From Gelidibacter salicanalis (GTDB lineage: Bacteria > Bacteroidota > Bacteroidia > Flavobacteriales > Flavobacteriaceae): a stretch of 64,000 nt of DNA. Of this stretch, positions 162-63,514 are shown piece by piece (positions within the stretch are counted from its first letter, which is position 1; each line of letters begins with the position of its first letter). The notes beneath the pieces were generated by a model. The model saw only the letters and a list, made by a program, of their open reading frames with translations. It had not been told where the DNA came from and ran no database searches. The position numbers were made by a program, and so were the translations under genes. The stretch covers positions 1 to 64,000 of the forward strand of contig NZ_JAEHJZ010000009.1 of NCBI RefSeq assembly GCF_016469035.1. The letters run 5' to 3'.

Positions 162-175
162 ATGACCCAGATCAT
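162..175 (+). promoter_or_regulatory. Upstream (second) Crp/Fnr-type operator for the histidine kinase gene
   Basis: ATGACCCAGATCAT is an ATGA-N6-TCAT palindrome. It lies 19 bp, centre to centre, upstream of the promoter-proximal copy at 181-194. No -10-like element sits at the usual 22-nt spacing, so it is probably an auxiliary site rather than a second promoter. Confidence 0.5.
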
Positions 176-180
176 TTATT

Positions 181-222
181 ATGATGAATATCATGTTAAA
201 TGATTTCTAAGTCCATTAACTT
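181..222 (+). promoter_or_regulatory. Crp/Fnr-type operator and -10 element of the kinase/regulator operon (autoregulation)
   Basis: ATGATGAATATCAT (181-194) is followed after exactly 22 nt by TAACTTTA at 217. This is the same geometry as at the other candidate promoters in the window and puts the operator centre near -41.5. The start would be near 229, giving a leader of about 140 nt before the ATG at 372. If the site is bound by the REC-Crp regulator encoded at 4047-5117, the operon is autoregulated. Confidence 0.6.
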
Positions 223-371
223 TACATAGTTATAAGTGGTTATAAATCAATGTTTTCATTGCTAAATTTATAGTTAAATATTTTGCCAGGTAGATTTCTT
301 AGACTCTGGTGGTCATTATTCATCTTAAATGAATGTAGTATTTTTCTGTTCTTTCAAAATATTTAATACGG

Positions 372-3300
372 ATGAAAAACACAACTCACAATAAAGATTT
401 GTTTCAGAATATTTTTGAAGCCTCGGTAGAAGGTATTATTGTAGTGAATGAAAAAGGGCTTATTTTGATAGCAAATCCTGCGTGCGAACTACTATTTGGT
501 TATGGATCCGGTGAATTACTAGGTCAGAATATCGAAATTCTTATTCCCGAAAAACTCAAGCGTCAATATAAAATTCATATCAAAAAGCATGTCACTCACC
601 CAGAAAAAAATACTGATATGTTGGGGACGAAAAAGGATGGCAGCACGTTTAGTGTCAACATCGGCTTGAGTCCTACTGCAATTGACGGTAAAAATGCAAC
701 CATCGCTTTTTTTTGTGATGCTACGCAACAGAAAAACGATTTAAAAACAATTAAAGAAACAAACGCCAAGCTGATAGAAAGTAACCGAAAGTTTGATGCT
801 TTGATCAATAACCAAAAGGGAATTGTGTTCCGTTCTAAAAACAACAGGAATTATGATATAGAATATATCAGCGAAGGCTGTTTAGAAATTACCGGCTATC
901 CTTTTGAGTCATTTAAAGACTACACTATAGCTTATGGTCAACTCATTTTGGTAGAAGAACGTGATACTGTTTGGGAAAGAATACAAAGTGCAGTAAAGCT
1001 GAAAAAACCGTACAGTGTTGAGTATCACATTACCCATAAAAATGGCACCAATAAATATGTTTGGGAAAGAGGCGAGGCAGTTTATAATGACCAAGGTGGA
1101 GTTGTAGCATTGGAAGGTTTTATAAGTGATATTACACCACAGAAAGAAACTGAATTGGAATTACGCAGTAGCGAAGCAAAAATAAAAGCTTTATTAGAGG
1201 CTGTTCCTGATATGATGTTTATCCAAGATCACAAAGGTGTGTATCTTGATTGGTATGCCAACAGTCCTCAAAAATTGTTTATGATACCAGAAAAATTTAT
1301 TGGTCTAAACATGAAAGACCTATTACCGTCTTATATCTATAAAAAAATAAAAATATCCCATCAAAATGTCATAACTTCTGGTGACTTACAGACTACAGAG
1401 TATAGCGTTCAAGGAAAAAATGGAATTGAACATTATGAGGCACGTGTGGTGCTTATGAACGACCATAAGCTTTTAACCATTGTTAGAGATACGACAGAGA
1501 AACAAAAGCTAAAAGATAAAATAGAGGAGGAAGAATTAAAAAGTAAAGCTATTTTAAACGCACTTCCAGATTTGTTTTCTGTACAAGATGAACACCAAAA
1601 CATCCTTGAATTGCATGCCCCAAACCCTATGTGGTTGCCGAAGCCTAAAGAACAGATGCTTGGCAAAAATATCATGGAAATAGCACCATTGATAGTCTCA
1701 AAACAACTTATTGAAGCTTTTAGGAGAGTCGGGTCAACGAAAACCATGGAAATTATTGAGATAGAAAGAGATACTTTATCTGGACTCATGATTTTTGAAG
1801 CCCGTTTAGTTCCATTTGGTAAGAATAAAACACTGTGCATTGCACGTAATATTACAAATAAAAAAGCTCAAGAAGAAGAATTGCTCATTAAAGACCGAGC
1901 TTTAGCTTCTGCAGGTAATAGTATCATAATTGCTGATGCACAAAAACTAGGGATACCCATAATTTATTGTAACGAAGCGTTTGAAAAACTAACAGGATTT
2001 AACAAAGAAGAAATATTGGGTAGAAACTGCAATATGTTGCAATCTGATGACAGAGATCAAAAAGAGATTGACATAATGAAAAAAGCGATTGCAAATGGCG
2101 AAGCTTGTCATGTGGTTTTACGTAATTATAAAAAAAATGGAACACTTTTTTGGAATGATGTAACCATTACACCAGTATATAACAAAGAAGTTAAATTAAC
2201 ACACTTTATAGGGATACAAAGCGATGTTACAAGTAAGGCTAAAGCAGAAGATCTTAAAGATAGAATGCAAAAAATATTAGAATTAATTGCCCAATACAAG
2301 CCTTTAAAAACTATTGCTAAAACAATTATTGATACGGCAGAAATACATCTTAAAGATTGTGTTGGTTCTATTTTACTATTGGATCAGGAAACTAAAACAT
2401 TACACAAATTGGCAGCACCAAATTTGCCAAAAGCATACTGCGAATACATTGAAGGGGGCGCTATTGGTCCTAAAATAGGTTCGTGCGGTACTGCATCATT
2501 CTTAAAAAAAGAGGTCATCGTTTCTAATATAGAAACAAGTGCACTTTGGGAAGATTATAGAGAAGAGGCCTTGAAAAATGGGTTAAAATCATGTTGGGCA
2601 TTTCCTATTATGTCATCTTCAGATCAAGTGCTGGGAACATTTTGTGTTTATAGTGCATTTGTAAGGCAACCTTTGGCTAACGAAAAAAAGATGCTTTTAG
2701 ATATGACCTATCTGGCAAGTATTGCCATAGAAAATTATAATCACACTATAATCCTGCAAAAAAATAAAAAGCAGTTAGAACTATACGCTCAAGAATTGGA
2801 AGACAAAGTGCAAGAGCGCACACAAGAAGTTGTGGCAACCGTAAAAGAATTGGTAGCATCCAATCTTAATCTGGAAGATCAAGTACTCATTACCAAACAA
2901 ATAGAAAGTGAGGCGATTACCAGTAGAAATATTGCTTCAGAAATTGCTAAAAATTTTCCAAATGGTTTTGTTGTTGTTGTGGACAAAGATTTAACAGTGC
3001 TGTTTGCTGAAGGTGAAGCATTGGCTCAATTAGGATTAAAACAGTTTATTACTAACGGTACAATTGTTAATGATATCACTGTTTTTTCTGAAAAACGAAA
3101 ATCTCGAATTAAGGAAAATTTCAGAAAAACACTTAGTGGGCAGTATCTCGCTTTTGAAGTTTGTTATAAAAGCAGATATTTTGCTACAAATACAGCCCCT
3201 TTATTTAATGAAAATAATCAAATAAGCTGCGCACTGCATGTATATAACGATATTTCTCACCAAAAAGAAATTGAGTTCAAAATTCAAAATGCCTTAAAAA

Positions 3301-4001
3301 AAGAGCAAGAATTAAATGAATTGAAGTCGCGCTTTGTGGCTATGGCATCTCATGAATTTAGAACCCCATTGAGTGCTATACTTACATCGGCAATTTTAAT
3401 TGGTAGGCAAAATGAACATGGAAAAGAGGCTAAACGACAAAAATATGTGAGTCAAATTGAAAAAAATGTAAATAATCTTGTGGTTATCCTTAATGACTTT
3501 CTCTCATTAAGCAAATTAGAAGAAGGAAAAGTTGTTTCAACACCAGAACGGATTGACTTAGTTTCCTTTTCTAAACAAATAATAAAAGGAATTAATCCAA
3601 CTTTAAAAAAAGGACAAGATATTGTTTTAAAGAGTGATAGAAAATTGCTTTTTGTGTCTTTAGATAAAAAATTATTACGTCATATCCTCAATAACCTTTT
3701 GTCTAATGCTTCAAAATATGCATCAGATGCCAACCAGATAGATTTTAAAATATTCCAAACCCAAGAAAAAGTAGTCATAGAAATTTCAGATCAAGGAATT
3801 GGCATTCCAGAAGAAGAGCAAGGGCATTTATTTAACCGTTTTTTTAGAGCTAAAAATGCGGTCAATATTGAAGGTACAGGGTTGGGTTTAAATATTGTGA
3901 AAAACTATACTGAATTAATGAATGGGACCATTCGTTTAAAAAGTAAATTAAATAGTGGCACAACCTTTTGGGTTGAGTTTCCAATAGGTAAGAAGGAATG
4001 A
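372..4001 (+). CDS. Soluble multi-PAS/LOV/GAF sensor histidine kinase
   Basis: This 1209-aa kinase has no membrane segment or signal peptide, so it should sense cytoplasmic signals. Approximate order: PAS 8-120, PAS 140-262, PAS 270-382, PAS 392-500, a LOV-type PAS 508-625, GAF 640-795, a coiled coil to 850, a last PAS 860-965, HisKA with phospho-acceptor His994 in ASHEFRTPLS, and HATPase_c 1090-1205 with N box (NNLLSNASKYA), G1 (DQGIGIP) and G2 (GTGLGLNI). The LOV-type domain carries GRNCNMLQ with Cys553, plus Asn585, Asn595 and Gln616. Their spacing equals that of Cys450, Asn482, Asn492 and Gln513 in oat phototropin LOV2. The gene is followed after 45 bp by a response regulator, its likely partner. 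The signal is not provable from sequence; flavin photochemistry or redox is the best guess for the LOV module. Confidence 0.93.
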   Translation: MKNTTHNKDLFQNIFEASVEGIIVVNEKGLILIANPACELLFGYGSGELLGQNIEILIPEKLKRQYKIHIKKHVTHPEKNTDMLGTKKDGSTFSVNIGLSPTAIDGKNATIAFFCDATQQKNDLKTIKETNAKLIESNRKFDALINNQKGIVFRSKNNRNYDIEYISEGCLEITGYPFESFKDYTIAYGQLILVEERDTVWERIQSAVKLKKPYSVEYHITHKNGTNKYVWERGEAVYNDQGGVVALEGFISDITPQKETELELRSSEAKIKALLEAVPDMMFIQDHKGVYLDWYANSPQKLFMIPEKFIGLNMKDLLPSYIYKKIKISHQNVITSGDLQTTEYSVQGKNGIEHYEARVVLMNDHKLLTIVRDTTEKQKLKDKIEEEELKSKAILNALPDLFSVQDEHQNILELHAPNPMWLPKPKEQMLGKNIMEIAPLIVSKQLIEAFRRVGSTKTMEIIEIERDTLSGLMIFEARLVPFGKNKTLCIARNITNKKAQEEELLIKDRALASAGNSIIIADAQKLGIPIIYCNEAFEKLTGFNKEEILGRNCNMLQSDDRDQKEIDIMKKAIANGEACHVVLRNYKKNGTLFWNDVTITPVYNKEVKLTHFIGIQSDVTSKAKAEDLKDRMQKILELIAQYKPLKTIAKTIIDTAEIHLKDCVGSILLLDQETKTLHKLAAPNLPKAYCEYIEGGAIGPKIGSCGTASFLKKEVIVSNIETSALWEDYREEALKNGLKSCWAFPIMSSSDQVLGTFCVYSAFVRQPLANEKKMLLDMTYLASIAIENYNHTIILQKNKKQLELYAQELEDKVQERTQEVVATVKELVASNLNLEDQVLITKQIESEAITSRNIASEIAKNFPNGFVVVVDKDLTVLFAEGEALAQLGLKQFITNGTIVNDITVFSEKRKSRIKENFRKTLSGQYLAFEVCYKSRYFATNTAPLFNENNQISCALHVYNDISHQKEIEFKIQNALKKEQELNELKSRFVAMASHEFRTPLSAILTSAILIGRQNEHGKEAKRQKYVSQIEKNVNNLVVILNDFLSLSKLEEGKVVSTPERIDLVSFSKQIIKGINPTLKKGQDIVLKSDRKLLFVSLDKKLLRHILNNLLSNASKYASDANQIDFKIFQTQEKVVIEISDQGIGIPEEEQGHLFNRFFRAKNAVNIEGTGLGLNIVKNYTELMNGTIRLKSKLNSGTTFWVEFPIGKKE

Positions 4002-4046
4002 ACTAATGAGATTCCCTATAACTTGGTGATAAAAAATAACTGTTCT

Positions 4047-5117
4047 ATGAAAAAAGTACTAATTATTGAAGACAATGCAGATGTGCGTGAGAACACAGCT
4101 GACATTTTAGAGCTTGCAGGTTATAAAGTTGCTACAGCCGAAAACGGAAAAGTAGGGGTTGCGATTGCCAAACAACTTCTCCCTGATATTATTGTATGTG
4201 ATATTATGATGCCAGAATTAGATGGTTATGAGGTATTGCAAGATTTAAACAAGAACACCAAAACAGCCAGTATTCCATTTATTTTTCTGACTGCCAAAAC
4301 AGAAAAAATAGACATACGAAAAGGTATGAATTTAGGTGCGGACGATTATTTGACCAAACCATTTAGTGAAAATGAATTATTGGAGGCTATAGAATGCCGA
4401 TTGAAAAAACATGACTTTTTAAAAAAAGAGTACTCTCAAACCATTGAAGGCGTTTCCCAATTTATTGAAGCCGCTTCAAACTATTTGGATTTAGACCATT
4501 TATCCAGAGATTATACGCCAAAAAAATACAATAGGAGAGAGGTAATCTATATGGAAGGCAATACGGCCAATTCCTTATATTATATACAAAATGGTGCTGT
4601 AAAAACTTACAAAACGACCGAAAAAGGGAAGGAGTTTGTGACAGGTTTGAGTGGCGCCGGTCATTTTGTGGGGCAGTTATCGCTATTATCAGATCATGGC
4701 ATCTATATTGAATCTGCTGCAATACTTGAAGATGCTGACCTTTATGAAATTCCCAAATTAGATTTTATAACGCTTCTAAATTCAAACAAAGATGTGGCTA
4801 ATAAGTTTGTAAGTTTAATATCCTGCAATTTGGTAGATGTACAGGACCAAATGGTAAATGTGGCATATGCCACCGTAAGACAGCGTGTTGCAAAAGCATT
4901 ATTGGACATACATAATAAAGGTATTTTAATGAATAAGGAAGATAATGGGATAAGCATCGCTAGAGAAGATTTTGCAGGTATTATTGGTACTGCAACAGAA
5001 ACAGCCATCCGTATGCTTACTGAATTTAAGGATGAAGGTTTAATAACCATAGGCAATGCCAGAAAAATAGTATTAGAAGATAAAGAGGCCCTTAAGGCTA
5101 TTGCACTATTTGGGTAA
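4047..5117 (+). CDS. Response regulator: receiver domain fused to Crp/Fnr cyclic-nucleotide-binding and HTH domains
   Basis: This 356-aa protein has a CheY-like receiver at about 1-120 (phospho-acceptor Asp52 in CDIMMPELDGYE, Lys in LTKPF). A helical linker follows, then a cNMP-binding-type beta-roll at about 150-265 and a Crp-type winged helix at about 280-345. The recognition helix contains GTATETAIRML; the E-x-x-x-R pattern is the one by which Crp/Fnr proteins read TGA half-sites. I chose the ATG at 4047; an in-frame TTG at 4023 is possible but adds residues not typical of receivers. It is probably phosphorylated by the upstream kinase. The ATGA-N6-TCAT sites in the window, including the one in front of its own operon, are its likely targets. 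That link is inference from motif, family and proximity. Confidence 0.93.
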   Translation: MKKVLIIEDNADVRENTADILELAGYKVATAENGKVGVAIAKQLLPDIIVCDIMMPELDGYEVLQDLNKNTKTASIPFIFLTAKTEKIDIRKGMNLGADDYLTKPFSENELLEAIECRLKKHDFLKKEYSQTIEGVSQFIEAASNYLDLDHLSRDYTPKKYNRREVIYMEGNTANSLYYIQNGAVKTYKTTEKGKEFVTGLSGAGHFVGQLSLLSDHGIYIESAAILEDADLYEIPKLDFITLLNSNKDVANKFVSLISCNLVDVQDQMVNVAYATVRQRVAKALLDIHNKGILMNKEDNGISIAREDFAGIIGTATETAIRMLTEFKDEGLITIGNARKIVLEDKEALKAIALFG

Positions 5118-5455: not shown

Positions 5456-5797
5456 CTATTTTTGTAGTTGCGCGTTTTTCTTTTTAAGATCTTCGAGTTT
5501 AGCTTCTAAGGATGTAATGATATCTTCTGCTTTATAGCTCATGCTAGAAACAGTCTCATCTAATTTTTTAGCAAAGGCTTCCTTTTTTTCGTGTGCAGTT
5601 TTGGTGAGTTCATCTTTGGCATGTTTCAACCAGTTTGAAACGTCATGCTTAGTACCTACTGCTGAATGTCTTATTATTCTTCTGGTTTTACTGCCTTTGC
5701 GTGGAGCAAAAAGAACTCCCATTCCTGCGCCAATTACTGCACCAACAGCTGCACCTGTTAACAGGACCAGCGCCATTTTTCTGTTTCTGTTTTCCAT
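5456..5797 (-). CDS. YtxH-like membrane-anchored stress protein
   Basis: The 113-aa product begins with one glycine/alanine-rich membrane segment at about 9-30, followed by LFAPRKGSKTR, the signature of the YtxH family (small GxxGxLFAPxxGxxTR proteins, many of them stress-induced). The rest is a charged, probably helical tail of about 75 residues. The biochemical role of the family is not established. It is transcribed divergently from the gene at 6018. Its start lies about 67 bp downstream of an operator (5865-5878), and the putative -10 TACATT is exactly 22 nt from the palindrome, which places it in the REC-Crp regulon. Confidence 0.85.
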   Translation of the reverse strand: MENRNRKMALVLLTGAAVGAVIGAGMGVLFAPRKGSKTRRIIRHSAVGTKHDVSNWLKHAKDELTKTAHEKKEAFAKKLDETVSSMSYKAEDIITSLEAKLEDLKKKNAQLQK

Positions 5798-5836: not shown

Positions 5837-5878
5837 AATGTATGAAGAGATGGTTTGGTATAAAATGATGTAGATCAG
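5837..5878 (-). promoter_or_regulatory. Crp/Fnr-type operator and -10 of the YtxH-like gene
   Basis: On the minus strand CTGATCTACATCAT (5865-5878) is followed after 22 nt by TACATTTA (hexamer 5837-5842). This class II geometry is shared with the other candidate promoters of the window. Confidence 0.65.
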
Positions 5879-5937: not shown

Positions 5938-5979
5938 TTGACCTACATCATTTTTAATATTTTTAGTTTAGGTTATATT
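5938..5979 (+). promoter_or_regulatory. Crp/Fnr-type operator and -10 of the gene at 6018
   Basis: TTGACCTACATCAT (5938-5951) is followed after exactly 22 nt by TATATT (5974-5979). Together with the operator at 5865-5878 it forms a back-to-back pair serving two divergent genes, each operator 66-67 bp from its start codon. Confidence 0.65.
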
Positions 5980-6017: not shown

Positions 6018-6524
6018 ATGACAGATAATTGCAACATAGAGCAAAAACAGATTTATTTAAGAGCTTATCAAGATCTTTCACAACTAGAGAATGATTTAAA
6101 ACACTTAGAAGAAAAGACTTCTCACTTTCAGGTTTCAGTACTGGGAAGCGTGGCTCAATTTTATGGTGATAAAAACATAGAAATCTCAAAGGATACCAAT
6201 ATGATAAAAGCGTATTGGGAAGATTTATTAGGAGAGAGGGTGAATTTTGGAAGTTTTTACAATCCAGAAAGTGGTTCTGTATTTATTGCAGGCGCTTTAG
6301 TAACCACATTTCTTCATAAAATAAACGGGAAGTGTCTCGCTACCTTATCTTCTGGACCATATGGTATTTTTAGAGGAATGGGTGGGAGTGAAGCACAAGC
6401 AACAACATATCTGAAACAGTTGAATAGTGGACAATACTTATTGATTTTAAGAGGTTTTGAAGATAAAACACAAGAATTGGATGAGCTACTAAATAATCCT
6501 ATAGAATATGCGAAATTTAAATAA
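6018..6524 (+). CDS. Putative general-stress protein, resembling the DUF1269/YflT group
   Basis: The 168-aa protein has no signal peptide. The N-terminal third is helical and charged. The middle is glycine-rich and hydrophobic, and a segment around GGSEAQATTYLKQLNSGQYL resembles the 'xxEAxxYxxxLxxGxxLV' stretch of general-stress proteins of the DUF1269/YflT type. That family call is tentative. The start at 6018 is the only one that preserves the 5' spacing to the promoter at 5938-5979. Its regulation by the same palindrome as the YtxH-like gene supports a stress role. Its molecular function is unknown. Confidence 0.75.
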   Translation: MTDNCNIEQKQIYLRAYQDLSQLENDLKHLEEKTSHFQVSVLGSVAQFYGDKNIEISKDTNMIKAYWEDLLGERVNFGSFYNPESGSVFIAGALVTTFLHKINGKCLATLSSGPYGIFRGMGGSEAQATTYLKQLNSGQYLLILRGFEDKTQELDELLNNPIEYAKFK

Positions 6525-6552: not shown

Positions 6553-6591
6553 CATAAAAACAAAAAACGAGAAGCCCAAACTTCTCGTTTC
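6553..6591 (-). terminator. Terminator of small-RNA unit 1
   Basis: Read on the minus strand, AAACGAGAAG / CTTCTCGTTT (6565-6590) forms a 10-bp stem with a 6-nt loop followed by a T-rich tail (CGTTTTTTGTTTTT). On the plus strand only three T follow, so the main direction is minus, although it could also end the convergent transcript of the gene at 6018. Confidence 0.7.
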
Positions 6592-6923
6592 TTATGAAGC
6601 ACTCTCATATGTTTACCAATTTTTAAGTGTTTAAAATAATATCTTTCCAGACTACTAAAACAAATTAAAATGTTGATGATCTATAAGAGATGCTTCATAT
6701 TGATTATAGCATAAATAATCAATGTTTTTAAGATCATCTGAGACATTTTACTGCCCCAGATTCTTGGTACAACGCATTCTCTAAAACCTTTAGGTATTGC
6801 ATACACTTAATAAAAAGTCAATACGATACGCTTAAAGCTTTTAAGAACGCTTTGCCAACTAGGTCTGTTGCTCGATCTCACACCAGGAACCTGTATGTTT
6901 TCAAATTACTATCTCGGTAATTA
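6555..6923 (-). ncRNA. Putative small RNA unit 1 of a three-copy tandem family (most diverged copy)
   Basis: The unit runs from a predicted start near 6923 to the terminator at 6565-6590. Its layout equals that of units 2 and 3 downstream, but primary sequence is much more diverged. The internal hairpin (about 6736-6763) retains CCCCAGATTC but pairs imperfectly. No ORF of meaningful length is present, and the 16-codon frame seen in units 2 and 3 has neither its ATG nor an open frame here. The promoter operator is also degenerate, so this copy may be weaker or inactive. Confidence 0.45.
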
Positions 6924-6929
6924 GGTTGT

Positions 6930-6971
6930 CATTTAACGCTATAAGATAAATGGACAAATGACGTAAAATAG
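6930..6971 (-). promoter_or_regulatory. Degenerate Crp/Fnr-type operator and -10 of small-RNA unit 1
   Basis: On the minus strand CTATTTTACGTCAT (6958-6971) keeps the promoter-proximal TCAT half but has lost the distal TGA. The -10 TAAATG (6930-6935) is still exactly 22 nt away. A longer palindrome TGACGT-N7-ACGTCA (6959-6977) overlaps it. Confidence 0.45.
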
Positions 6972-6977
6972 ACGTCA

Positions 6978-7377
6978 AATTTTTAAAAATAGAAACTGGA
7001 AGCCGAGACTTCCAGTTTCCTGTTGAGACGATTCATTTTATTTATACGTCCAATCAATTCTTTACGCATTTTATTTTCTAAAATACTTGGACAAATCAAT
7101 CTTAGTAAAACAAATTCAATCGCTTCATACTGGTTACACTTGCTTTACAGTAGTTTATAACCAATTTTTTAAAAGAATCTGGAACTTTTCACCGTCCCAG
7201 ATTCTTGGTGCAAATTATTCTTTAGAATTTAGTGATATCATATACACTTTATAAAAAGTCAACATAATAACTTCAACCTTTAAGAATTTTTTGACACCTG
7301 CGATTCCTCTGTACAGCTACAGCAAGGAACCTTTGTTTATATTTTCAAATTCAAAGAACTATCCAATCTTTAATTAA
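6978..7377 (-). ncRNA. Putative small RNA unit 2 of the tandem family
   Basis: Predicted transcript of about 395 nt from near 7377 to the terminator hairpin at 6992-7019. It contains a near-perfect hairpin at 7175-7204 (GAATCTGG.AC / GTCCCAGATTC) and a compound stem near 7290-7335 built from GATTCC / GGAACC-type arms and CTGTA / TACAG. These are shared with unit 3. A 16-codon ORF starting ATGTTGACT also occurs at the same place in unit 3, but its substitutions are not clearly silent, so I treat the unit as non-coding. Confidence 0.5.
6992..7019 (-). terminator. Terminator of small-RNA unit 2
   Basis: A GAAACTGGAAG / CTTCCAGTTTC stem with a 6-nt loop; on the minus strand it is followed by TATTTTT. 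It is nearly identical to the hairpin at 7447-7472. Confidence 0.7.
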
Positions 7378-7383
7378 ATTGCT

Positions 7384-7425
7384 AATTTAAAGCAGTTTAC
7401 CCCCATATAAAATGACCTGAATCAG
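7384..7425 (-). promoter_or_regulatory. Crp/Fnr-type operator and -10 of small-RNA unit 2
   Basis: On the minus strand CTGATTCAGGTCAT (7412-7425) is followed after 22 nt by TAAATT (7384-7389). The -10 and the following bases (TAAATTAGCA) are identical to unit 3, although the 22-nt spacer is not conserved, which points to selection on the promoter elements. Confidence 0.65.
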
Positions 7426-7439
7426 TTTGGATCTTTTTT

Positions 7440-7823
7440 TTAATAAAAACTGGAAGCCGAAACTTCCAGTTTCTTTTTGAGACGATTCATTTTATCTCTA
7501 CCAAACAACCAATCAAATCTTCCATTTCTAGAATTTTAGAAATCGTCGATTCTGGTAAAATAAATTCAATGGCCTCATACTGGTTACACTTGCTTTACAG
7601 TAGTTTATAATCAATTTTTTAAAAAGAATCTGGGACATTTTACCGTCCCAGATTCTTGGTGCAAATTATTCTTTAGAATCTTTTAATGTTATATGCACCT
7701 TATAGAAAGTCAACATAGTAACTTCAATCCTTAAGAATTTTTTGACACCTGCGATTCCTCTGTACAGCTACAGCAAGGAATCTCTATTTTATATCATCAA
7801 AGAACATTGTAATCTTTAATTCT
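7440..7823 (-). ncRNA. Putative small RNA unit 3 of the tandem family
   Basis: Predicted transcript of about 385 nt from near 7823 to the terminator at 7447-7472. The central hairpin at 7626-7655 has a perfect 11-bp stem (GAATCTGGGAC / GTCCCAGATTC) and an 8-nt loop. A second structure near 7750-7785 combines GATTCC / GGAATC with CTGTA / TACAG around a CAGC loop. No convincing ORF is present. The unit lies just upstream, in transcription order, of units 2 and 1. It is separated from the stop codon of the glucan synthase gene (7973) by its own operator-promoter, so it should be independently transcribed. Confidence 0.5.
7447..7472 (-). terminator. Terminator of small-RNA unit 3
   Basis: AAACTGGAAG / CTTCCAGTTT with a 6-nt loop, followed on the minus strand by TTATT and an A-rich stretch, and on the plus strand by CTTTTT. 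It can work in both directions. Confidence 0.65.
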
Positions 7824-7829: not shown

Positions 7830-7871
7830 AATTTACGATGGTTTGTTGCTTTTGGAAATGACCCAGGTCAG
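7830..7871 (-). promoter_or_regulatory. Crp/Fnr-type operator and -10 of small-RNA unit 3
   Basis: On the minus strand CTGACCTGGGTCAT (7858-7871) is followed after 22 nt by TAAATT (7830-7835). It is one of the best matches to the shared operator. Confidence 0.65.
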
Positions 7872-7972: not shown

Positions 7973-10900
7973 CTAAATCGAGATATGAACCTCGACCTCA
8001 TGGAGTATACCATCATCTTTTAGTGGGAAAATATTCCCTTTGCCCTGCTCATTTTCCATTTTCCACCACGATCCTTCAGTGTCTTTTTCCTGAAATACTG
8101 TGATATTGTACGGAGTAGTTTTAAAACGGTAACTAATAGTTACTGAAGGCCATTCTTCAGGGTAGCAGGGTGTGAACTTCAGTTTATCCACGAGAAGTTC
8201 CATACCTAACAAGGAACCAATAATAAATTGATTCATCCAACCTGAGGAACCGGTGTACCAGGTCCATCCGCCACGGCCTCGATGGGTTTCATTGGCGTAA
8301 ACATCAGCAGCCATCACATAAGGCTCGACTTTATAAGTCTGCACATCCTCCTGATTTAAGGCATGATTAACAGGTTGTACCATACTAAAGAGTTCATAGG
8401 CTGTCTTCCTGTCTCCCAGCGCTGCAAAAGCCATTAAAGTCCAGATAGCAGCATGCGAATATTGCCCTCCATTTTCTCTTACGCCTGGCACATATCCTTT
8501 GATATATCCCGGGTTCAAATCAGAGGTGTCAAACGGCGGATCTAAAAGCTGGATGATTTTCATATCTCTTTTGACCAGGTTTTTATTTAAGGAATCCATG
8601 GCTTGGTTCCTTCTGTCTTCTGGTGCAGCGCCAGTCAATACAGACCAACTTTGGGAGATGGCATCAATGCGACATTCTTCATTTACTTTTGATCCTAGAG
8701 GTGTTCCGTCATCAAACCAGGCGCGTTTATACCATTCACCGTCCCAAGCAGACTTCTCAATATTGGATTGTAATTTAATGGCTTCTTCTTTACAGGTTGA
8801 AGCAAATTTAGTATCACCATATTTAGTGGCGACTTGCTCAAAATTGGTTAGAATATCATAAAGGAAAAATGCCAGCCAAACACTTTCTCCTTTGCCTTCA
8901 TTCCCTACTTGATCCATGCCGTCATTCCAATCACCAGAACCGATTAGCGGCAAGCCGTGTTTTCCAAAACGGAAGCTATGATTTATAGCGAGACGACAAT
9001 GGTGGTACAAGTTGGAACTTGAAGTTCCACTGATTGGTAAATCATATAGGGAGTCTTCGCCTTCAAGCAACAGTCTGGATTCTAAAAATCCGGTTTGCTC
9101 ATTCAGTATTTCCAAATCACCAGTAGCATTTAAATATCTATAAACCACAAATGGCAGCCATAACAAATCATCAGAACAATTGGTGCGCACGCCTCTTCCT
9201 ACCGGTGGATGCCACCAATGCTGGACATCACCTTCCGTAAATTGTCGGGAGGCATTTAAAAGAATTTGTTTACGGGCAAACTCAGGTTTATTGTGCAATA
9301 AGGACAGCACATCCTGAATTTGGTCTCTGAAACCAAAGGCGCCTCCGGATTGATAGAATCCACTACGTGCAAACAATCTAGAAGCGATGGTTTGATAGGT
9401 AAGCCATCCATTGGCCAAAAGATTTAAAGACTCATTTGGGGTTTGAACCTGCACCGTAGTTACGATCTCATTCCAGTAGTCCTTCATCTGGTCATAAGAT
9501 TGTTTAATTACATTCAGGTTTGAAAAATCCTGAGTGAGTTTTATAGCTGAGGCCTTGTCCTCGCCACTACCAATAAGAAAAACAACCTCTCTTTCTTCTC
9601 CTGCCAATAAATTAAATTTTCCTTGTAAACCAGCGCAGGTGTCTCGTCCGGCCCCAATTTTCCCTCTAAGATCTTGACGGTATAAAGCCTGGGGATTGGA
9701 AAGATTCCTGTTTCGGCCAATAAACTTCGAACGGTCAGTGGTATTACTGTATTTATTCACACCAATAATCTTAAAAAACACTACCCGGTTGGCAAAAGCA
9801 TCATTGTAATTGTTACGAAAGAACAAAGCGCCACACTGTACATCATACTCTGAAAGAACATGCATGTTGGTTTTAGAGCGGACATCACCCAATATAATTT
9901 CTAGGTAGCCTGTAGCAGAAAGTTTTCGTAATCGGTCTGTATTGTTTTTTATGGTAAGCACTACAAACTTTACGGGTGCCTCCTTGTCCACAAACACTTT
10001 CATTTTGGATGCTATGCCGTTTTCTATATGTTCATAACCGGTATAACCAAAGCCATGTGTCGTCATATAATTCGATTCGCTTTTTATAGGAAATGGCGCC
10101 GGCGACCAAAATAGTCCGGTATCCTCATCACGCAGGTAAAAAGCTTCACCTCCCATGTCTGTCACCGGATCATTATGCCAGGGAGTAATGCGATATTCAT
10201 GTGCATTCACGGCCCAAGTGTAGGCTGAGCCACTTTCAGAAACTACTGTTCCAATAGTAGGATTTGCAATAACGTTCACCCAGGGTGCCGGCGTAGTTAC
10301 CTCTTTATCAATTAGAATTTTATATTCTTTTCCATCTGACGTAAAACCTCCCGTTCCATTGAAAAATTTAAGGTCTTGTGGCATCACTACATTTTCAACA
10401 CTAATTTTTTCGGAAGTTTGGTGTTTAACATCTAATAAAGGTGACGAACCTATTTCTCTGTACTGCCTTGATATTTGCTTTGATAGGGAGCCATCAGTAT
10501 CGGTAATAATGATTTTGGCAACGCTTTCAAATAAGATACGGTCCTCTGAGGAAATTTGATCGGTTGATTTTACATATATTTTTCCTGGGATATGGCTGGT
10601 CAATGAGTCACCAGCTGAAATCATTCCTAAGATCTGGTCTTGCAATTCGTGTCGGTATGAACCATGGTCCTCATTCCAGATCACGAGATCTACGGTCAAG
10701 CCTTTTAGTTGCCAATACCCGTGAGCCTTAATCATTTGTGTAACCAAATCCAGATTTTCCGAGTTGAATATTTGTAACAAAACGATCGGCAAGTCGCCGG
10801 ATACTGAATGGCTCCAAAGTCCTGACTGACCTCTGAAATTGTTTTTGATCACGGTCTCATTGGCGCGCAGAGCCGGATTTGAATAAATAATCGAAGCGGC

Positions 10901-13900
10901 TAATTTTCCAAATAGTTGGGCATCCACTTCCGTGGCATTTATTTGCCTTAACAAAACCTGACTATGCGTCCAGGAAAGATCCAGTGCTCGTTTTTTAAGA
11001 TTCTTATCCCTGTATTTATGCATGAGCGATTCACTTTCTTCGCGACTTTCACAAATACCATATATAAGGTCGATGGTTGCAGTGCTGAATGGCTTAATGG
11101 TGATCCGGTATTTTGTAGCCATTACAGGATCTAAAACGGCACCTTGGTTGCCAGCTAATTTACCGATATCAAGCGCCTGAGGATTAGCCAAGGTTCTTCC
11201 CCTACCAATAAATTGCATGCGGTCTGTTTCAAACGACACTTCTTCCACTTCCGCTCCATAGGCATCCATTAAATGGAATAAATGGGGTGGCATTTCATCT
11301 TTGGAACGCGGTCTTCTTGTGGCAAAAACAGCATTATATTCAGGTTGGATATCTGTTTGAACAAAAAGATTACTGAATGCAGGATGAGCTTCGTCAGAGG
11401 CCTGGGTTGCCAAAACAATCTCTGTATAACTCGTAACTTCCAGAATTTTTGAGGATTTCGACCGGTTCGTAATTTTTATTTTTCTTATTTCTACATTATC
11501 TTCAGGGGAAACCACAATTTGGGTTTTAGTTTCAAAACCAAAATCCTGCCGTCGAAACTCGATGGTTCCCTGAGAAAATATAGTTTCATAATTTTCGGAA
11601 GACTGAAGGGTGGGATGGTAGGTGTTAGACCAGAAATTCCCACTATCGACATCTTTTATATAACAAAAAATGCCGTAATTATCTTTAATAGCATCTTCAC
11701 GCCATCTTGTTACTGATATGTTTTTCCAGCGGCTGTAGCCTCCTCCTGAATTGGTTACCATGACCTGGTATTTACCATTACTGAGTAATTGTACTTCGGG
11801 TATAGGTGTATTGGGTGTATTTATGACTCTTAATTGTGCATGTGCTTCCGTAGTGTGTATCTCAGTAATTTTAGCCGTATGCGCATGAAAAATGGATCGC
11901 TTAGGAATCCGTTCCTGCAATAGTGGCAATGTCGCCTGAAAGCGCAATTCCGCTGCAAATCGATTTTGCATTGGTTTGTTTAATAAGACATACGCAAAAG
12001 ATAAGAATCCCATCCCCTGATGATGAGCCATAAAGGAATTGATCAGCACATGGTTTTCGCCACGAGGTAAACGTGTTTTGGTATAATCAATGGCTTCTAA
12101 AAAACCGTATTCCCCTTCTAAACCTTTCTCCGATAAAAGTTCTAAATTAGATGCGGCTTTTTTAGGCGCAACCATTAAAGCCAGCATGCTAGCATACGGT
12201 GCTATGACTAGATCTTCCTCTAATCCGCGCTTCAATCCCAACCCTGGCACCCCGAAAGCGTGGTATTGATAATTCAAGCTGGCATCCACACTGTTATAAC
12301 CAGATTCGGAGATGCCCCAAGGCACATCACGTTTTTTAGCGTATTCTATCTGCCGTTTTACCATAGCAATATTGGTAGCATGTAATAACGTGTTTTCATA
12401 GGTTGGCATAACTAATTGAGGCATCAAATATTCGAACATCGATCCGCTCCAAGAGAGTAAAATAGCCCCATCTTTCGAATCGGTGAGTAAACGGCCCAAG
12501 GAGAACCAGCTTTCCTGAGATAATAGTCCCTGTGCAATGCCCACAAAAACGCCCATTCTCGCTTCTGAAGCCAGCATATCATAAAAGCTATCATCTCTCC
12601 GCAACTCATCCACATTATAACCTATGGAAAGATGATAAGTGTTTTTATCTATTAAAAATTCATAATCCACAATGCTCAATTGCTCCAATTGCTCGGCCAA
12701 TTCTTCAATATAAGTGAGTTTTTCCGGAATAAAATCGACTCCATTTTTTAAAGCAGTTTCTACTTTTATCAGCCAGTCAGCCTCCCCGCTTGTTTCATTT
12801 TTGTATTGATCAATTTGTTGACTTAACTCACCATTTATTTCTCGAAGAGAGAGAAGCGAATGATTAAAGTCCAATTTTGATAAACCAGTAAATGATTCCG
12901 GAATGGGCAATAGATGCAACCAAGGAATTTGTCTGTATAAATCTTCTCGAGTGTTTTCAATTTGATTTTTTAATTGAAGCATCCATTTACCGATTTCCAA
13001 ATGCTCATCAAACACTGTGAGATTCTCGCCGAGAGCCATCAGGTCATCGAAATTTCTCTTTATTACTGACAAAGATTTGTTCTTTTCACGAATAGCATTG
13101 CCTAGTAAATTTTCTATAGTTTCTATAGTTTCATCCTTTTCATCTTTCAGCAAATCCTTTATAACTCCTATTGTAGAGTAAAGACCATTATAGCTTTCAA
13201 TATTGAAAATTGGATTGGATTTAAACGCTAAAATACCTTGTCGCAAAATAAGAAGATGCCCCACCAGATTGCCACTATCCACTGTGGATACATACGCGGG
13301 TCTCATGATAGCTAAGGATTGGGTGTCATACCAATTATAAAAATGGCCCTTGTAGCGCTCCATCTCATGTAATGTTTTGAGGGTGCTGTTGCATCTAGAA
13401 AGCATTTGCCCCATTGTGATATACCCAAAATCATATGCTGTAAGATTAGCCAGCAAAGAGAGGCCTATATTGGTAGGCGAGGTACGGTGGGCGATTACTG
13501 GATTAGGATGCTGTTGGAAATTGTCCGGTGGCAACCAGTTTTCGCCTTTATTCACAAAGTGTTCAAAAAAGCGCCATGTTTTTCTGGCCGCTTTATGAAG
13601 AAATATTTTTTGTGTCCGGGTAAGATCGGGAACTTCTTCTTTTTCCGTCAGACTTAATCCCCAGGCAATAGTGGGCGAAAGAAACCATAAAGTAAGAATA
13701 GGAATGGAAACAAAAAACGCCGGTAAATTTGAATATAGAAATAATACAAGGCAGATAAAAGACAACACTGGCCCAATCCACATTTTTCGATAAATGAACC
13801 AGTAATTATTTTTTGATTCTTTGGAAGCGGCGGCAGATGGTGTCCATTCCAAAAGTTTTTTACCGCTAACAATCATTCTCCAGTTGGTTTGGATGATCGC

Positions 13901-16702: not shown

Positions 16703-19099
16703 CTAACCATGAACCATATTTTTGTTAGCCATTTGTTTTTCAGCTTTATTGATGTTTTCTATGCCTTGCAAAAGAGCATCTGGATTGAAAGAAATGCTAT
16801 CAATGCCTTCATTGACCAAAAATGAGGCAAATTCGGGGTAGTCACTTGGTGCTTCACCGCATAACCCTATTTTAGTATTTGTTTTTTTAGCAGACTGGAT
16901 GGCCATTTTAATAAACTGCTTTGGTGCTTCATTATTCTCATCAAAGAGGTTCATCAATAATTCAGAATCTCTGTCAATACCCAGTGTAAGTTGTGTGAGA
17001 TCATTGGAGCCAATTGAGAACCCGTCAAAGATCTCGGCAAATTGTTCGGCTAAAATCACATTGCTAGGGAGTTCTACCATTGTATATATTTCAAGGTTAT
17101 TGACACCGCGTTTTAATCCATTTTCTTCCATTACAGTCAATACCTTTTTGCCTTCTTCAATGGTTCTACAAAAAGGAACCATCACCTTTAAGTTAGTTAA
17201 TCCCATTTGCTCGCGTACTCTTTTAATGGCTTTACATTCCAATGCAAAACCTTCTTTGTACAAATCGCTATAATACCGTGCTGCACCTCTAAAACCTAGC
17301 ATCGGGTTTTCTTCATGAGGTTCAAAATCTTTTCCACCAATGAGGTTTGCATATTCATTGGTTTTAAAATCGCTTAAACGTACAATCACTTCTTTTGGAT
17401 AAAAGGCCGCAGCGATAGTGGCGATACCTTGCGATAATTTATCGACAAAATAATCCTCCTTATCTGGGTATGTTTCGGTAATTTTTTTAATTTCTTTCTG
17501 TATTGAATTGTCTGTGATCTTATTAAATTTTACCAATGCCATAGGATGTACTTTAACATGATGGGTAATGATAAATTCCATACGTAATAAACCTACACCA
17601 CTATTAGGATATTGGGATAGTTGGAAAGCACTATCGGGATTTGCGAGTATTAGTTTTGCTTCAGTTTTAGGCGTTTTAATATTGGAAAAATTTATTTCCT
17701 TTTTGCTATATGTGCCTTTTCCCTGATATATATACCCAACATTCCCCTCTGCACATGAAATAGTAATATCTTCACCTTCTGCAATGGCTCTTGTGGCATT
17801 ACCACAGCCTACAATTGCGGGGACACCTAACTCACGAGCCACAATGGCGGCATGGCTTGTTCGGCCACCTTTATTGGTAACGATGCCGGCTACTTGTTTT
17901 AACAATGGATCCCAATCTGGAGTTAAGGTATCGGTTACAATAATGGTATCGACCGGTAAGATGCCTACATTTCTTGGAGATTTTAACAGTTGGGCTTTAC
18001 CGATGCTTATTTTTGACCCTACGGCATTGCCTTGAGATAATAATTGCCCCTTCTTTAAAAGTGTATATTCAATAATGAGTTTTTTACTCCCTGTCTGGTG
18101 TACTGTTTCTGGACGGGCTTGTGTTATGAACATCTCATCTGTGATGCCATCTTTTGCCCACTCTATATCCATCGGTTTTTTATAGTGGTCTTCGATTATT
18201 TTTGCCCACCTTGACAATTCGATGATTTCATTGTCTGACAAGACAAATCGCAGCTGTTTCTTTTTTGTTGTTTTTATGTTTACAATGGTTGTTTTTTCCT
18301 TTTCATTAGCATACACCATGGTTAACTTTTTATCACCCATATTCTTTTGAACAATTGGGTAATAACCTTGTGCCAAACTCGGTTTAAAAATATAGAATTC
18401 GTCGGGGGTAACAACACCTTGAACAATATTCTCTCCCAATCCCCAAACCCCGGACAGTAGCATAATGTTTTCAAATCCTGATTCCGGATCGATGGTAAAC
18501 CCAACTCCAGAACATCCTTTATCTGCTCTTACCATAAGTTGCACACCAACAGACAAAGCAACATCGTGGTGTTTGAAACCTTTATCCTCTCTATATTTTA
18601 AGGCGCGATTGGTATACAAAGAAGCAAAACATTTTTTAACAGTCTGAATTAAGGCGTCGTTTCCTTTTATATTCAAATAGGTGTCGTGCTGTCCAGCAAA
18701 ACTGGCATCTGGAAGATCTTCGGCTGTAGCACTGCTTCGCACGGCAACCTCTTTTAATTCTTTACCACATAAAGTAGTATATTCAGATATAATCTCTTCT
18801 TTAAAATTTGAGGAAATAGTAGCCCCTAAGATAAGATCTCTTGTCCGTTTTCCGATGTCTTCGAGATTAGAATAGGCATTTTTGTCCAATTCATTTAAAA
18901 TGTTTTCTATTTGTGTTTGAATATCGTTCTTCTTCAGAAATTCCCAAAAAGCAAACGAGGTTGTTGCAAAACCATTTGGAATACGGACACCTTTTGAGGT
19001 TAATTCATTATACATTTCTCCTAAAGATGCGTTTTTGCCTCCAACACTACCAACATCCTTAATACCAACTTCGCCGAATTTTTTTATACGTGTCTCCAT
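16703..19099 (-). CDS. ppsA: Phosphoenolpyruvate synthase
   Basis: The 798-aa protein matches the length of E. coli PpsA (792 aa). An N-terminal ATP-grasp domain opens with GGKNASLGEMY. The swivelling phosphohistidine domain carries His416 in GGRTSHAAIVAREL, equivalent to the catalytic His of the family. The C-terminal PEP/pyruvate barrel shows SIGSNDLTQLTLGIDRDS and LCGEAPSDYPEF with the catalytic Cys; E replaces the more usual Q. It makes PEP from pyruvate and ATP (AMP and phosphate released) in the cytoplasm and so feeds gluconeogenesis. It is the first gene of a two-gene operon with the glucan synthase, which could be supplied with sugar nucleotides this way. Its promoter has the class II Crp/Fnr-type operator. 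Confidence 0.95.
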   Translation of the reverse strand: METRIKKFGEVGIKDVGSVGGKNASLGEMYNELTSKGVRIPNGFATTSFAFWEFLKKNDIQTQIENILNELDKNAYSNLEDIGKRTRDLILGATISSNFKEEIISEYTTLCGKELKEVAVRSSATAEDLPDASFAGQHDTYLNIKGNDALIQTVKKCFASLYTNRALKYREDKGFKHHDVALSVGVQLMVRADKGCSGVGFTIDPESGFENIMLLSGVWGLGENIVQGVVTPDEFYIFKPSLAQGYYPIVQKNMGDKKLTMVYANEKEKTTIVNIKTTKKKQLRFVLSDNEIIELSRWAKIIEDHYKKPMDIEWAKDGITDEMFITQARPETVHQTGSKKLIIEYTLLKKGQLLSQGNAVGSKISIGKAQLLKSPRNVGILPVDTIIVTDTLTPDWDPLLKQVAGIVTNKGGRTSHAAIVARELGVPAIVGCGNATRAIAEGEDITISCAEGNVGYIYQGKGTYSKKEINFSNIKTPKTEAKLILANPDSAFQLSQYPNSGVGLLRMEFIITHHVKVHPMALVKFNKITDNSIQKEIKKITETYPDKEDYFVDKLSQGIATIAAAFYPKEVIVRLSDFKTNEYANLIGGKDFEPHEENPMLGFRGAARYYSDLYKEGFALECKAIKRVREQMGLTNLKVMVPFCRTIEEGKKVLTVMEENGLKRGVNNLEIYTMVELPSNVILAEQFAEIFDGFSIGSNDLTQLTLGIDRDSELLMNLFDENNEAPKQFIKMAIQSAKKTNTKIGLCGEAPSDYPEFASFLVNEGIDSISFNPDALLQGIENINKAEKQMANKNMVHG

Positions 19100-19121: not shown

Positions 19122-19163
19122 AAAATACTTCAATATTGGATGTCTTAAAATGATGCAGGTCAG
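19122..19163 (-). promoter_or_regulatory. Crp/Fnr-type operator and -10 of the ppsA / glucan synthase operon
   Basis: On the minus strand CTGACCTGCATCAT (19150-19163) is followed after exactly 22 nt by TATTTT (19122-19127); the ppsA start codon is about 22 nt further on, so the leader is very short. Confidence 0.65.
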
Positions 19164-22494: not shown

Positions 22495-22881
22495 TTACAT
22501 ATACTTTTCAAGAAATCTAAAAAACTTTTTTTTAAGTTCTGCATATATATCCCTTTGCGTTTCGATGTCATTTCTAAACTCATAATGTTGTTTCGCTAAT
22601 CGTGTGTCTAAAACATCCGAACCTGCTTCGCTTAGTCCAGCAATACGTGTTTCGTGCTTTTCAATGGTTTCTTCTAAATCTTCAATTACACCTCCATGAA
22701 GGATAAATTGATTTTGGTAATGTTCTAGTTGTACAAGGATGTCTTTGTCTGTCCAGCGTGTCACCAACTCACTCAATCTATGGTTAAAGGATTTCAACTC
22801 ATCCTTCCAAAAATCGAGTTCTCCTTTCCATTGTTGGTGTTCAAAATGCATATTGTCGTTGTATAAAATTTTTGTTGTCAT
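22495..22881 (-). CDS. Coiled-coil protein of unknown function under the Crp/Fnr-type operator
   Basis: A 128-aa protein without signal peptide or membrane segment. Heptad-like charged helices dominate (for example QWKGELDFWKDELKSFNHRL and LEETIEKHETRIAGL), suggesting a helical bundle or a dimeric coiled coil. I do not recognise a family. The start at 22881 is preceded by the operator at 22939-22952 with the -10-like CAACTTTA at the standard 22-nt distance, which makes it a candidate stress-regulon member. A copy of the 250-bp element begins only 16 bp beyond the operator. Confidence 0.72.
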   Translation of the reverse strand: MTTKILYNDNMHFEHQQWKGELDFWKDELKSFNHRLSELVTRWTDKDILVQLEHYQNQFILHGGVIEDLEETIEKHETRIAGLSEAGSDVLDTRLAKQHYEFRNDIETQRDIYAELKKKFFRFLEKYM

Positions 22882-56867: not shown

Positions 56868-56878
56868 AAGGAGTGCTA

Positions 56879-62422: not shown

Positions 62423-62882
62423 TTCAGGGAAGGTTTAGAAATTGCAAAATTAATTAATTTTAAATGGTTGATCAGCCTGAAAACAGAATAACAACAATAA
62501 AAGATATACTTCTATAAACTATATTCGCAATAAGGCCTAAAGAGATGGGATAGGTCTCTATTATAACTTTTGATCCACAGTTATTAATAAACTTTACTAA
62601 ATGCTTACGCTATAATCTGCTCATTTATGGTGCGTAGCTTTAACGATTCTGAAGAAATTTTTGCGATTTTAATGGGCTTGCTCCCTTTCTAAAAGAATTT
62701 TAGGCAGATGAGGATAGAAGGGGGTCTTAATTCTGCTAATGCCCTAATGATTGTTTATGCTTTTAGAAAGTATATGTACCGATCGTTTATTTATTCCCAT
62801 CAGATGAGAAGGGGCGGATACCAAACCAGGACAACACTCAAAATATTCACAATAAATTTTAGCCCCTATATTTTAGCCCACT
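62423..62882. other. Intergenic region without a supported gene
   Basis: Divergent spacer between ccsBA and the right-edge lipoprotein gene. The only long frame (62708-62974) runs into the repeat at 62883 and has no similarity to any family I know. No terminator is expected because the genes diverge. Confidence 0.4.
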
Positions 62883-63040
62883 ATTGTCCGGTAAAGGAGT
62901 CAAAGCTGCCTAAAGAACGGCAGGCAAGCGCTGCGCCGTTAGAACCAACCTACAGGAAGGAAACAAAGACTTGAGTGTAGCTGGCTGCTAATTAGTCGGA
63001 ATATATAGGCAAAATGTCTGCCCTTTCTCCAAAACATTTT
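62883..63040 (+). repeat. Divergent, partial copy of the 250-bp element
   Basis: Starts ATTGTCCGGTAAAG, then GGCAGGCAAGCGCTGCGC and GGAAACAAAGACTTGA in the same order as in the full copies. It has many differences and loses similarity before the right end. It appears to be an older insertion. Confidence 0.6.
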
Positions 63041-63472
63041 TTCTAAAAAGGTAGTTTTCATTTAAAGATACTTGCGAAATCCCTTATTAAGACAGGGCTT
63101 ATTAAACTATAATAGTATAACCGAAGACTAATGAATTAGAGTAATAGGTAGCTATACTGTAATGAATGCAACAATTAGCTTGTTAAGAAATAATCACTTT
63201 TTTCGGATCCCTTTATTCATTCACTCCAAAACCCATTTTCAGATAGTTGCTTTCGAAAAATAATTCTTCAGGACGTTGTCCCTCCTAATAAAAAAATATT
63301 ATTAGACAAAAATCGTCTTCCCTCGTATTAAATATTACCCAAATAAAGTGATTAATTCATTATGAATATGACAATATTTAGCCAGAATATTATTAATTTC
63401 TCAATATTAAGCGGTTGAATTCAGTAAATCACTTATTTATCTTGATTATAAATTATAATATGCATCCTGAAT

Positions 63473-63514
63473 ATGACTTATGTCATACTCTAAAGCGTTT
63501 TTATGTAGCAATTT
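63473..63514 (+). promoter_or_regulatory. Crp/Fnr-type operator and -10 of the heme-binding lipoprotein gene
   Basis: ATGACTTATGTCAT (63473-63486) is followed after exactly 22 nt by CAATTTTATAG (hexamer 63509-63514), nearly identical to the sequence at the same place behind the operator at 22939-22952. It is 58 kb from the regulator gene, which shows that the candidate regulon is not confined to one cluster. Confidence 0.6.

Follow-up and report, generated by a model that had tools for sequence, protein, structure and literature searches.

The question raised by this locus is whether nine short palindromes, all located at the same distance from a promoter hexamer, are the operators of a single regulon and, if so, which protein binds to them. 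The locus consists of positions 1-64,000 of contig NZ_JAEHJZ010000009.1 of Gelidibacter salicanalis (assembly GCF_016469035.1), and this whole stretch of 64,000 nucleotides (nt) is referred to below as the window. In a preliminary description, nine promoters (at 181, 5865, 5938, 6958, 7412, 7858, 19150, 22939 and 63473) were assigned to one regulon based upon palindromes of the form ATGA-N6-TCAT, and an adjacent protein in which a receiver domain is fused to a Crp-type protein (REC-Crp) was proposed as their binder. The results described here make it probable that the nine sites belong to one Bacteroidota promoter class activated by Crp/Fnr-type proteins, most of them via the adjacent REC-Crp, with two further regulators sharing the same geometry.

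A fixed spacing between operator and hexamer

At all nine sites the letters described earlier are present, and the gap from the end of the 14-mer to the hexamer is exactly 22 nt. The hexamers conform to TAnnTT in six cases and to CAnnTT in two, the remaining one being TAAATG, while the operator reads HTGA-N6-TCAT in eight of the nine, with 6958 as the exception. The preliminary description had suggested a comparison with shuffled genomes and a genome-wide scan of spacings. Here, shuffles of the window and the listed part of the genome were examined with the pattern HTGA-N6-TCAT on both strands, followed by TAnnTT at spacings of 10-35 nt. The operator pattern is enriched in the window, with 28 strand matches versus 11.25 in 100 shuffles (sd 4.03, largest 27), and eight of the 28 carry TAnnTT at 22 nt, with at most two at any other spacing (Poisson P 6.5e-10). 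Two of these eight (viz. 46493 and 15408), which are not among the earlier nine, are intragenic and score negatively for all of the operator types described below, and due to this they are taken as chance occurrences. In the genome outside the window's contig, the 22-nt spacing likewise exceeds its neighbours: among the 100 matches listed, of 264, ten are at 22 nt, other spacings having a mean of 1.38 and a maximum of 4 (P 2e-6). A 22-nt spacing no commoner than its neighbours, which would have spoken against the preliminary description, was thus looked for and not seen in the part of the genome listed. The operator pattern has 264 strand matches in this genome, whereas its reversal has 82.

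When 149 genomes of the family were searched for relatives of the REC-Crp at a threshold of E <= 1e-60, a match was found in 66 of them, of which 11 (inclusive of G. salicanalis) showed at least 53% identity and the others 39-46%. Twenty 20-kb stretches lying outside the window were then examined, ten centred on orthologues of the window protein (type I) and ten on a second group with 42-46% identity (type II). TAnnTT occurs at 22 nt in 69 of the 150 operator sites of the type I stretches, with 0-5 at each other spacing (P 2e-83), and in 51 of 110 sites of the type II stretches, with 0-4 elsewhere (P 7e-57). Promoters with the 22-nt spacing are found near the REC-Crp gene in 9/10 orthologous stretches. 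The same spacing was seen in 32 of 62 sites from 19 paralogue-centred 4-kb loci, of which L031 lies inside stretch L092, and in 44 of 124 sites from loci L143-L153, which are among the best 80 of 575 loci from named genomes (L143-L222). The control loci gave 0/10 (14 loci at other receiver proteins of the same genome) and 1/16 (13 loci at weaker Crp hits). Hence, it is clear that the fixed-spacing promoter rule is real, and that it is general in the Flavobacteriaceae sampled.

From the stretches of 12 genomes 131 such promoters were extracted, and a promoter model was built from 122 of these, with the window excluded and nine omitted when the list was chosen. The eight best hits of this model in the window are eight of the nine sites (E 9.3e-6 to 1.3e-3), the top one being 22939 (22.7 bits), while 6958 reaches 7.2 bits (E 0.91). 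As the model was trained on 22-nt promoters and is biased to this spacing, it was not used as a test of it. The promoter-proximal TCAT, which had been called invariant, is present at all nine sites; however, its invariance is in part an artefact of the search, since a search with TCA[TG] also finds operators ending in TCAG. This is the case for 8 of 134 type I promoters, and for all three noncoding RNA (ncRNA) promoters of Winogradskyella thalassocola described later.

The sites and the genes which they precede are as follows (scores are for the operator types described below).

162..175, both strands: second operator, palindrome ATGACCCAGATCAT, 19 bp upstream of the 181 operator, centre at about -60.5
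181..222, + strand: promoter of the kinase-REC-Crp operon; operator 181-194, hexamer 217-222 (TAACTT), predicted start about 229
372..4001, + strand: PAS/GAF sensor histidine kinase (Pfam PAS, GAF, HisKA, HATPase_c)
4023..5117, + strand: REC-Crp response regulator (type I), proposed activator (Pfam Response_reg, cNMP_binding, HTH_Crp_2)
5456..5797, - strand: YtxH-like protein, putative target
5837..5878, - strand: YtxH gene promoter; operator 5865-5878, hexamer 5842-5837, predicted start about 5830, type I score 9.7
5938..5979, + strand: promoter of the 168-aa gene; operator 5938-5951, hexamer 5974-5979, predicted start about 5986, type I score 6.4
6018..6524, + strand: 168-aa protein without Pfam match, putative target
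6557..6923, - strand: predicted ncRNA copy 3, terminator-like hairpin at its end
6930..6971, - strand: degenerate promoter of ncRNA copy 3; operator 6958-6971 (CTATTTTACGTCAT), hexamer 6935-6930 (TAAATG)
6988..7377, - strand: predicted ncRNA copy 2, with boxA-like GTTCTTTGAA, mid hairpin and terminator-like hairpin
7384..7425, - strand: promoter of ncRNA copy 2; operator 7412-7425, hexamer 7389-7384 (TAAATT), type I score 9.6
7445..7823, - strand: predicted ncRNA copy 1, 89% identical to copy 2 over 174 nt
7830..7871, - strand: promoter of ncRNA copy 1; operator 7858-7871, hexamer 7835-7830 (TAAATT), type I score 9.2
7973..16660, - strand: giant GH94 protein, putatively glucan synthase-like (Pfam GH94_b-supersand, Glyco_hydro_94, Glycoamylase)
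16703..19099, - strand: phosphoenolpyruvate (PEP) synthase/PPDK-like protein, putative target
19122..19163, - strand: promoter of the PPDK-GH94 unit; operator 19150-19163, hexamer 19127-19122 (TATTTT), predicted start about 19115, type I score 7.5
21700-22320: WG-repeat gene, downstream of the 128-aa gene
22495..22881, - strand: 128-aa protein without Pfam match, putative target
22911..22952, - strand: promoter of the 128-aa gene; operator 22939-22952, hexamer 22916-22911 (CAACTT), predicted start about 22904, type I score 12.1
63473..63514, + strand: promoter of the open reading frame (ORF) 63561-63998; operator 63473-63486, hexamer 63509-63514 (CAATTT), predicted start about 63521

At a further palindrome, ATGATAAAAATCAT (23222-23235), neither strand carries a -10-like hexamer 22 nt away.

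Position of the operator relative to the core promoter

In class II Crp/FNR promoters of E. coli, the core TGA-N6-TCA is centred at -41.5, and the promoters described here have the same core and a predicted centre at the same position. They differ in that one spacing dominates, that the core promoter is the Bacteroidota -7 box TAnnTTTG, and that a receiver domain probably provides the input. The hexamer corresponds to the first six letters of this box, TAnnTT[T][GA]. The search fixed only [TC]A..T at -12 to -8, and in the logos of 84 type I and 53 type II promoters T is found at -7 in 100%, T at -6 in 67% and 89%, and G/A at -5 in 98% and 94%, respectively. For Flavobacterium psychrophilum, where transcription starts have been mapped, the sigma-A box TAnnTTTG is reported at -12 to -5 (PMC9723704). 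If the box lies at this position here as well, then the gap of 22 nt places the dyad centre at -41.5, the class II position described for activation by FNR and Crp (PMC12531629). The class II position proposed earlier is the predicted one here as well, with the spacing to the -7 box being exact and the position of the box itself borrowed from another flavobacterium. In type I promoters a T-rich run is present 3' of the operator, covering -34 to -32, where a -33 box would be expected. Some dyads are flanked by a -7 box at 22 nt in either direction (8/72 in type I, 3/54 in type II and 2/18 in stretches from genomes without a REC-Crp, 0/10 in the window), so that a single operator might serve a divergent pair of class II promoters.

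The candidate regulators

The window REC-Crp belongs to the Crp/Fnr superfamily (PF00027, 4.3e-17; PF13545, 1e-13), and its Pfam matches at E <= 0.001 are solely Response_reg, cNMP_binding, HTH_Crp_2 and Crp. Among its structure matches, the 60 best of 290 each span just one of the two domains. The receiver residues E16, D17, D60, T90 and K112 are invariant in nine aligned proteins inclusive of that from the window, and from these residues and the adjacent kinase gene we infer that the protein would be controlled by phosphorylation. The E-x-x-x-R recognition helix ascribed to it was borne out: it reads GTATETAIR, with E326 and R330 invariant in 24 aligned proteins.

However, this protein is not the only one of its kind in the genome, which also contains a type II REC-Crp on contig C284 (43% identity; helix GIATETLIR) and standalone Crps on contigs C176 (GTATESAIR), C24 (GTAKEACIR) and C651. 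In a midpoint-rooted tree of 71 rows, type I (21 rows, support 99/96) and type II (13 rows, 100/99) form separate groups, and the REC-Crp of one genome (G054) falls outside both. The C176 protein looks like FNR because of the cysteines it shares with its relatives and the genes preceded by model hits on its contig. In 11 FNR-like proteins, cysteines are found at +0, +3, +49 and +102 from the CxxC in all 11, at +25 in nine and at +55 in ten, whereas in the four REC-Crps examined the cysteines are scattered and a CxxC is absent, so that they lack the N-terminal cysteine cluster of FNR. The model hits on the C176 contig precede genes for a COX1-family oxidase subunit, cytochrome c and a radical-SAM protein, the last of which we presume to be HemN-like. 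FNR and the FNR-like protein share with REC-Crp a related helix-turn-helix, the helix GTATE[ST]AIR and the same half-site. The cAMP-contact residues of the Crp barrel are G-E-L...R-S-A; in the window REC-Crp, compared with this motif by eye, the corresponding segments read GQLSLL...YIESAA, unlike those of a cAMP-responsive Crp.

Three proposed types of operators

The operator centres differ, reading CTGACCTAGGTCAT followed by TTT near type I and CTGATATTTATCAT near type II, while in stretches from genomes without a REC-Crp (no-REC stretches L123-L132), which were selected on model hits, the operators read AAAC-ATGACAWWTRTCAT-RTTTTA. A leave-one-genome-out classifier based on flanks and centre was correct for 101 of 134 type I and 36 of 57 type II sites, and for 17 of 21 FNR-like (type III) sites, the last type and its count resting on no-REC stretches picked by model hits. 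Fourteen sites of those stretches are these very hits, and their 22-nt peak (20/95) is therefore non-independent.

In the window, 5865, 5938, 7412, 7858, 19150 and 22939 score as type I, as does the extra palindrome at 162-175 (ATGA...TCAT), which had been overlooked in the preliminary description and has scores of 7.9, -0.2 and -3.6 for types I, II and III. The operator at 181 is a near tie (I 2.8, II 2.7, III 3.5), 63473 leans FNR-like (III 5.7, II 4.4, I 3.1), and 6958 (CTATTTTACGTCAT), whose distal half is gone, is a tie of types I and II.

Genes that follow the promoters

The putative targets of the two REC-Crp types differ. Among 82 type I targets (window and L073-L081) there are eight HSP20, seven Patatin, seven kinase, seven YtxH and three Usp genes, whereas the 53 type II targets include 26 Usp and one HSP20, and also S30AE (HPF-type), DUF2267, FixS, DUF302 and others. 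The 25 families listed, of 111, for 88 non-target neighbours in the type I stretches include neither HSP20 nor Patatin, YtxH or Usp, a comparison which covers families with at least three members. In the fetched loci, a 22-nt promoter is retained upstream of YtxH homologues in 10/10 cases, of homologues of the 168-aa protein in 12/13 and of PPDK homologues in 4/6; a GH94 homologue was not found in the fetched loci searched with its first 600 aa as query. Outside the window, hits in the same genome precede two Pfam-confirmed universal stress proteins (USPs), a short Hsp20-like ORF, a PNPOx-like protein, and NadA, FTHFS, CBS and MlaE genes. The functional spread claimed earlier (stress, gluconeogenic, glucan and small-RNA members) broadly holds, except that the glucan member does not have a promoter of its own: the GH94 gene begins 42 nt past the end of the PPDK-like gene, and both are presumably transcribed from the promoter at 19150.

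A 22-nt promoter is present within 900 nt of the kinase start in 9/10 stretches scanned, a set to which L082 does not belong. In L073 and L081 it lies 470-483 nt off, before a preceding gene. In L075, a 22-nt promoter was located ahead of the preceding gene in the general site search. The operon of the regulator thus has a promoter like those of its targets, and it would be auto- or cross-regulated. In five of nine kinase-operon promoters (window, L073, L076, L077 and L079) a second dyad is seen 18-42 bp further upstream.

Predicted tandem noncoding RNAs

The region 6557-7823 (- strand) consists of three tandem repeats of about 400 nt, each with an operator at its head and a terminator-like hairpin at its end. 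Homologous triplets occur in W. thalassocola (L143, 15060-16400, - strand) and in genome G061 (L073, 7305-8540, + strand), where two copies have degenerate promoters. TAAATT at exactly 22 nt is found in 3/3 copies of W. thalassocola, 2/3 of the window and 1/3 of G061, and a word [GA]TTCTTT[GA]A follows the operator core by 45-53 nt in eight of the nine copies, window copy 3 being the exception. The only ORF of at least 50 aa in the repeats (55 aa) lies on the opposite strand, and Rfam at gathering scores gave no match in the window. The consensus fold has 42 pairs, 14 of them with two-sided changes in one sequence or more. As its covariation term is small (-0.87), the fold beyond the terminator hairpin and the conserved mid hairpin is tentative.

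The word in these RNAs, which lies near the 5' end, bears a resemblance to boxA. The ncRNAs read AGTTCTTTGAAAACATA, while the rRNA leaders of the relatives G056 and G061, which were used because a 16S search in the G. salicanalis genome gave no hit, read AGTTCTTTAACATATTG, AGTTCATTGACATATTG or AGTTCATAAACATATTG, and exact TTCTTTG is absent from them within 520 nt of 16S. A DNA search with the ncRNA core in 397 genomes of the family found, besides the source genome, nine with short matches only (28-36 nt), and those beyond the G061 match, which lies in the homologous triplet, are taken as chance. Heads of similar layout (operator, hexamer and GTTCTTTGA) are seen in L137 (16498-16940), L079 (7525-7775) and L047 (3564), which suggests a wider, diverged RNA family; GTTCTTTGA has 54 occurrences among 5.3 million strand bases, and several of the other matches listed look like chance.

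Which protein binds these sites

Several results count against assigning these sites to the neighbouring REC-Crp. Model hits are found also in genomes without a REC-Crp (5-44 each in 20 of 83), where "without" means none at 1e-60, so that weaker REC-Crps could be hidden; a search with the Crp part in these 20 genomes gave, among the hits listed, open frames of standalone size (186-263 aa scale), not fusions. Genomes with a REC-Crp have more hits (21-85 each in 26 of 66; Mann-Whitney P 4.7e-6), and hence the link to REC-Crp is quantitative rather than exclusive. Three of the nine sites (181, 63473 and 6958) are not clearly type I, and the typing is wrong for 33 of 134 type I sites. The promoter is kept in just 3/9 homologues of the 128-aa protein, 3/6 of the WG protein and 0/1 of the 63561 protein. 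Further, no 22-nt promoter was found within the 20 kb around the G054 REC-Crp (53% identity; L082, and L154 on the same contig), and the peak is weaker in L154-L222 (30/415 at 22 nt, again among the best 80 of 575 loci), which come mostly from families outside Flavobacteriaceae. These loci also show 13 sites at 23 nt, possibly a second spacing.

Based on the matches in genomes without a REC-Crp and the nearly identical helix of standalone Crps, a single regulator for all nine sites was dropped. The proposal that the adjacent receiver-Crp is the binder is accordingly retained in part, as a neighbouring fusion protein with conserved receiver residues, and given up as regards its being the sole regulator of the nine; the regulon claim would need three regulators, not one, sharing one geometry.

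If the FNR-like C176 protein were instead the main binder of all the sites, then these would form a low-oxygen regulon in which REC-Crp is a passenger or a modulator. This is unlikely, although its six cysteines common to relatives, the helix GTATESAIR, the hits before oxidase, radical-SAM and cytochrome c genes, the model matches in genomes without a REC-Crp and the highest scores of 181 and 63473 as the FNR-like type are all in its favour. The promoters, however, cluster at REC-Crp genes (69/150, 51/110 and 32/62), whereas 17 loci at the best standalone Crp of no-REC genomes have only 4/41 sites at 22 nt, with spacings of 8 and 10 nt reaching 6 and 5; in addition, the operator centres vary by cluster. 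It is more improbable still that the type I and type II REC-Crps are redundant on one pooled regulon without separate operator types. The misassigned sites (23/134 from type I stretches called II, and 13/57 from type II stretches called I) could be so read, but the target sets differ (Usp 26/53 versus 3/82; HSP20 8/82 versus 1/53) and the sampled regulators form separate supported groups in the tree. That the palindromes are chance features of an A/T-rich genome, with 22 nt picked by eye, is hardly credible: short degenerate patterns are indeed common, two of the window's eight matches at 22 nt are intragenic and most matches in the genome lack such a hexamer (10 with it among the 100 listed, of 264), but a peak at this single spacing recurs in independent stretches, with P down to 2e-83.

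Proposed mechanism

The geometry, clustering, conservation, domains and helices are read from the DNA, and it is from these that binding, phosphorylation, activation and the regulator of each site are predicted. The 22-nt placement of the dyad most likely serves activation by a signal-activated relative of Crp/FNR, and the best candidate for the activator at most of the nine sites is the window REC-Crp, via phosphorylation by the neighbouring kinase. The TGA-N6-TCA dyad would seat a Crp/Fnr dimer at -41.5, overlapping the place of the -33 box, and this dimer would contact RNA polymerase at the TAnnTT[T][GA] box, as in class II activation. The PAS/GAF kinase would phosphorylate the receiver, and phosphorylation, in place of cAMP or an Fe-S cluster, would allow the Crp part to bind. 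The predicted type I sites (5865, 5938, 7412, 7858, 19150, 22939 and the extra 162) would then lead to production of proteins of the stress response and the envelope (to which relatives add Hsp20, patatin and USP), the PEP synthase-like/GH94 unit and the three tandem ncRNAs, while the USP-linked type II REC-Crp and the FNR-like protein would read the same geometry with other operator centres.

A more elaborate picture, which is tentative and about which we are more doubtful than hopeful, is that of a three-input network, in which an FNR-like redox regulator and the type I and II REC-Crps share the half-site and the -41.5 position and are told apart by centre and flanks. The type I branch may then be a dormancy-like stress programme, with the boxA-bearing ncRNA triplet as a phosphorylation-controlled counterpart of FNR-controlled small RNAs, and with tandem sites of mixed type at the kinase operon.

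Relationship to known systems and significance

The mycobacterial dormancy regulon of DosR/DevR also places USP and Hsp20-like stress proteins under two-component control at promoters sharing one motif. DosR, however, has a LuxR-type DNA-binding domain, whereas that of the window protein is Crp-type (Pfam, E <= 0.001), so that the regulon described here is not a DosR regulon. BT4338 of Bacteroides, for which a global regulon was predicted by comparative genomics, has the Crp family and the phylum in common with REC-Crp but differs in its reported motif (TATGTTnTAnAACATA) and sugar-utilisation targets (PMC3878776). A REC-Crp regulon of Bacteroidota was not found in the literature as judged by titles and the beginnings of abstracts, which is no proof of its absence in print, and little was found on activator-dependent promoters of this phylum.

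The 131 promoters from 12 genomes, which share one exact geometry, provide a directly testable rule for the prediction of targets. They also suggest a way in which an FNR-type activator can come under the control of a receiver domain, and they point to an undescribed family of noncoding RNAs within the same regulon.

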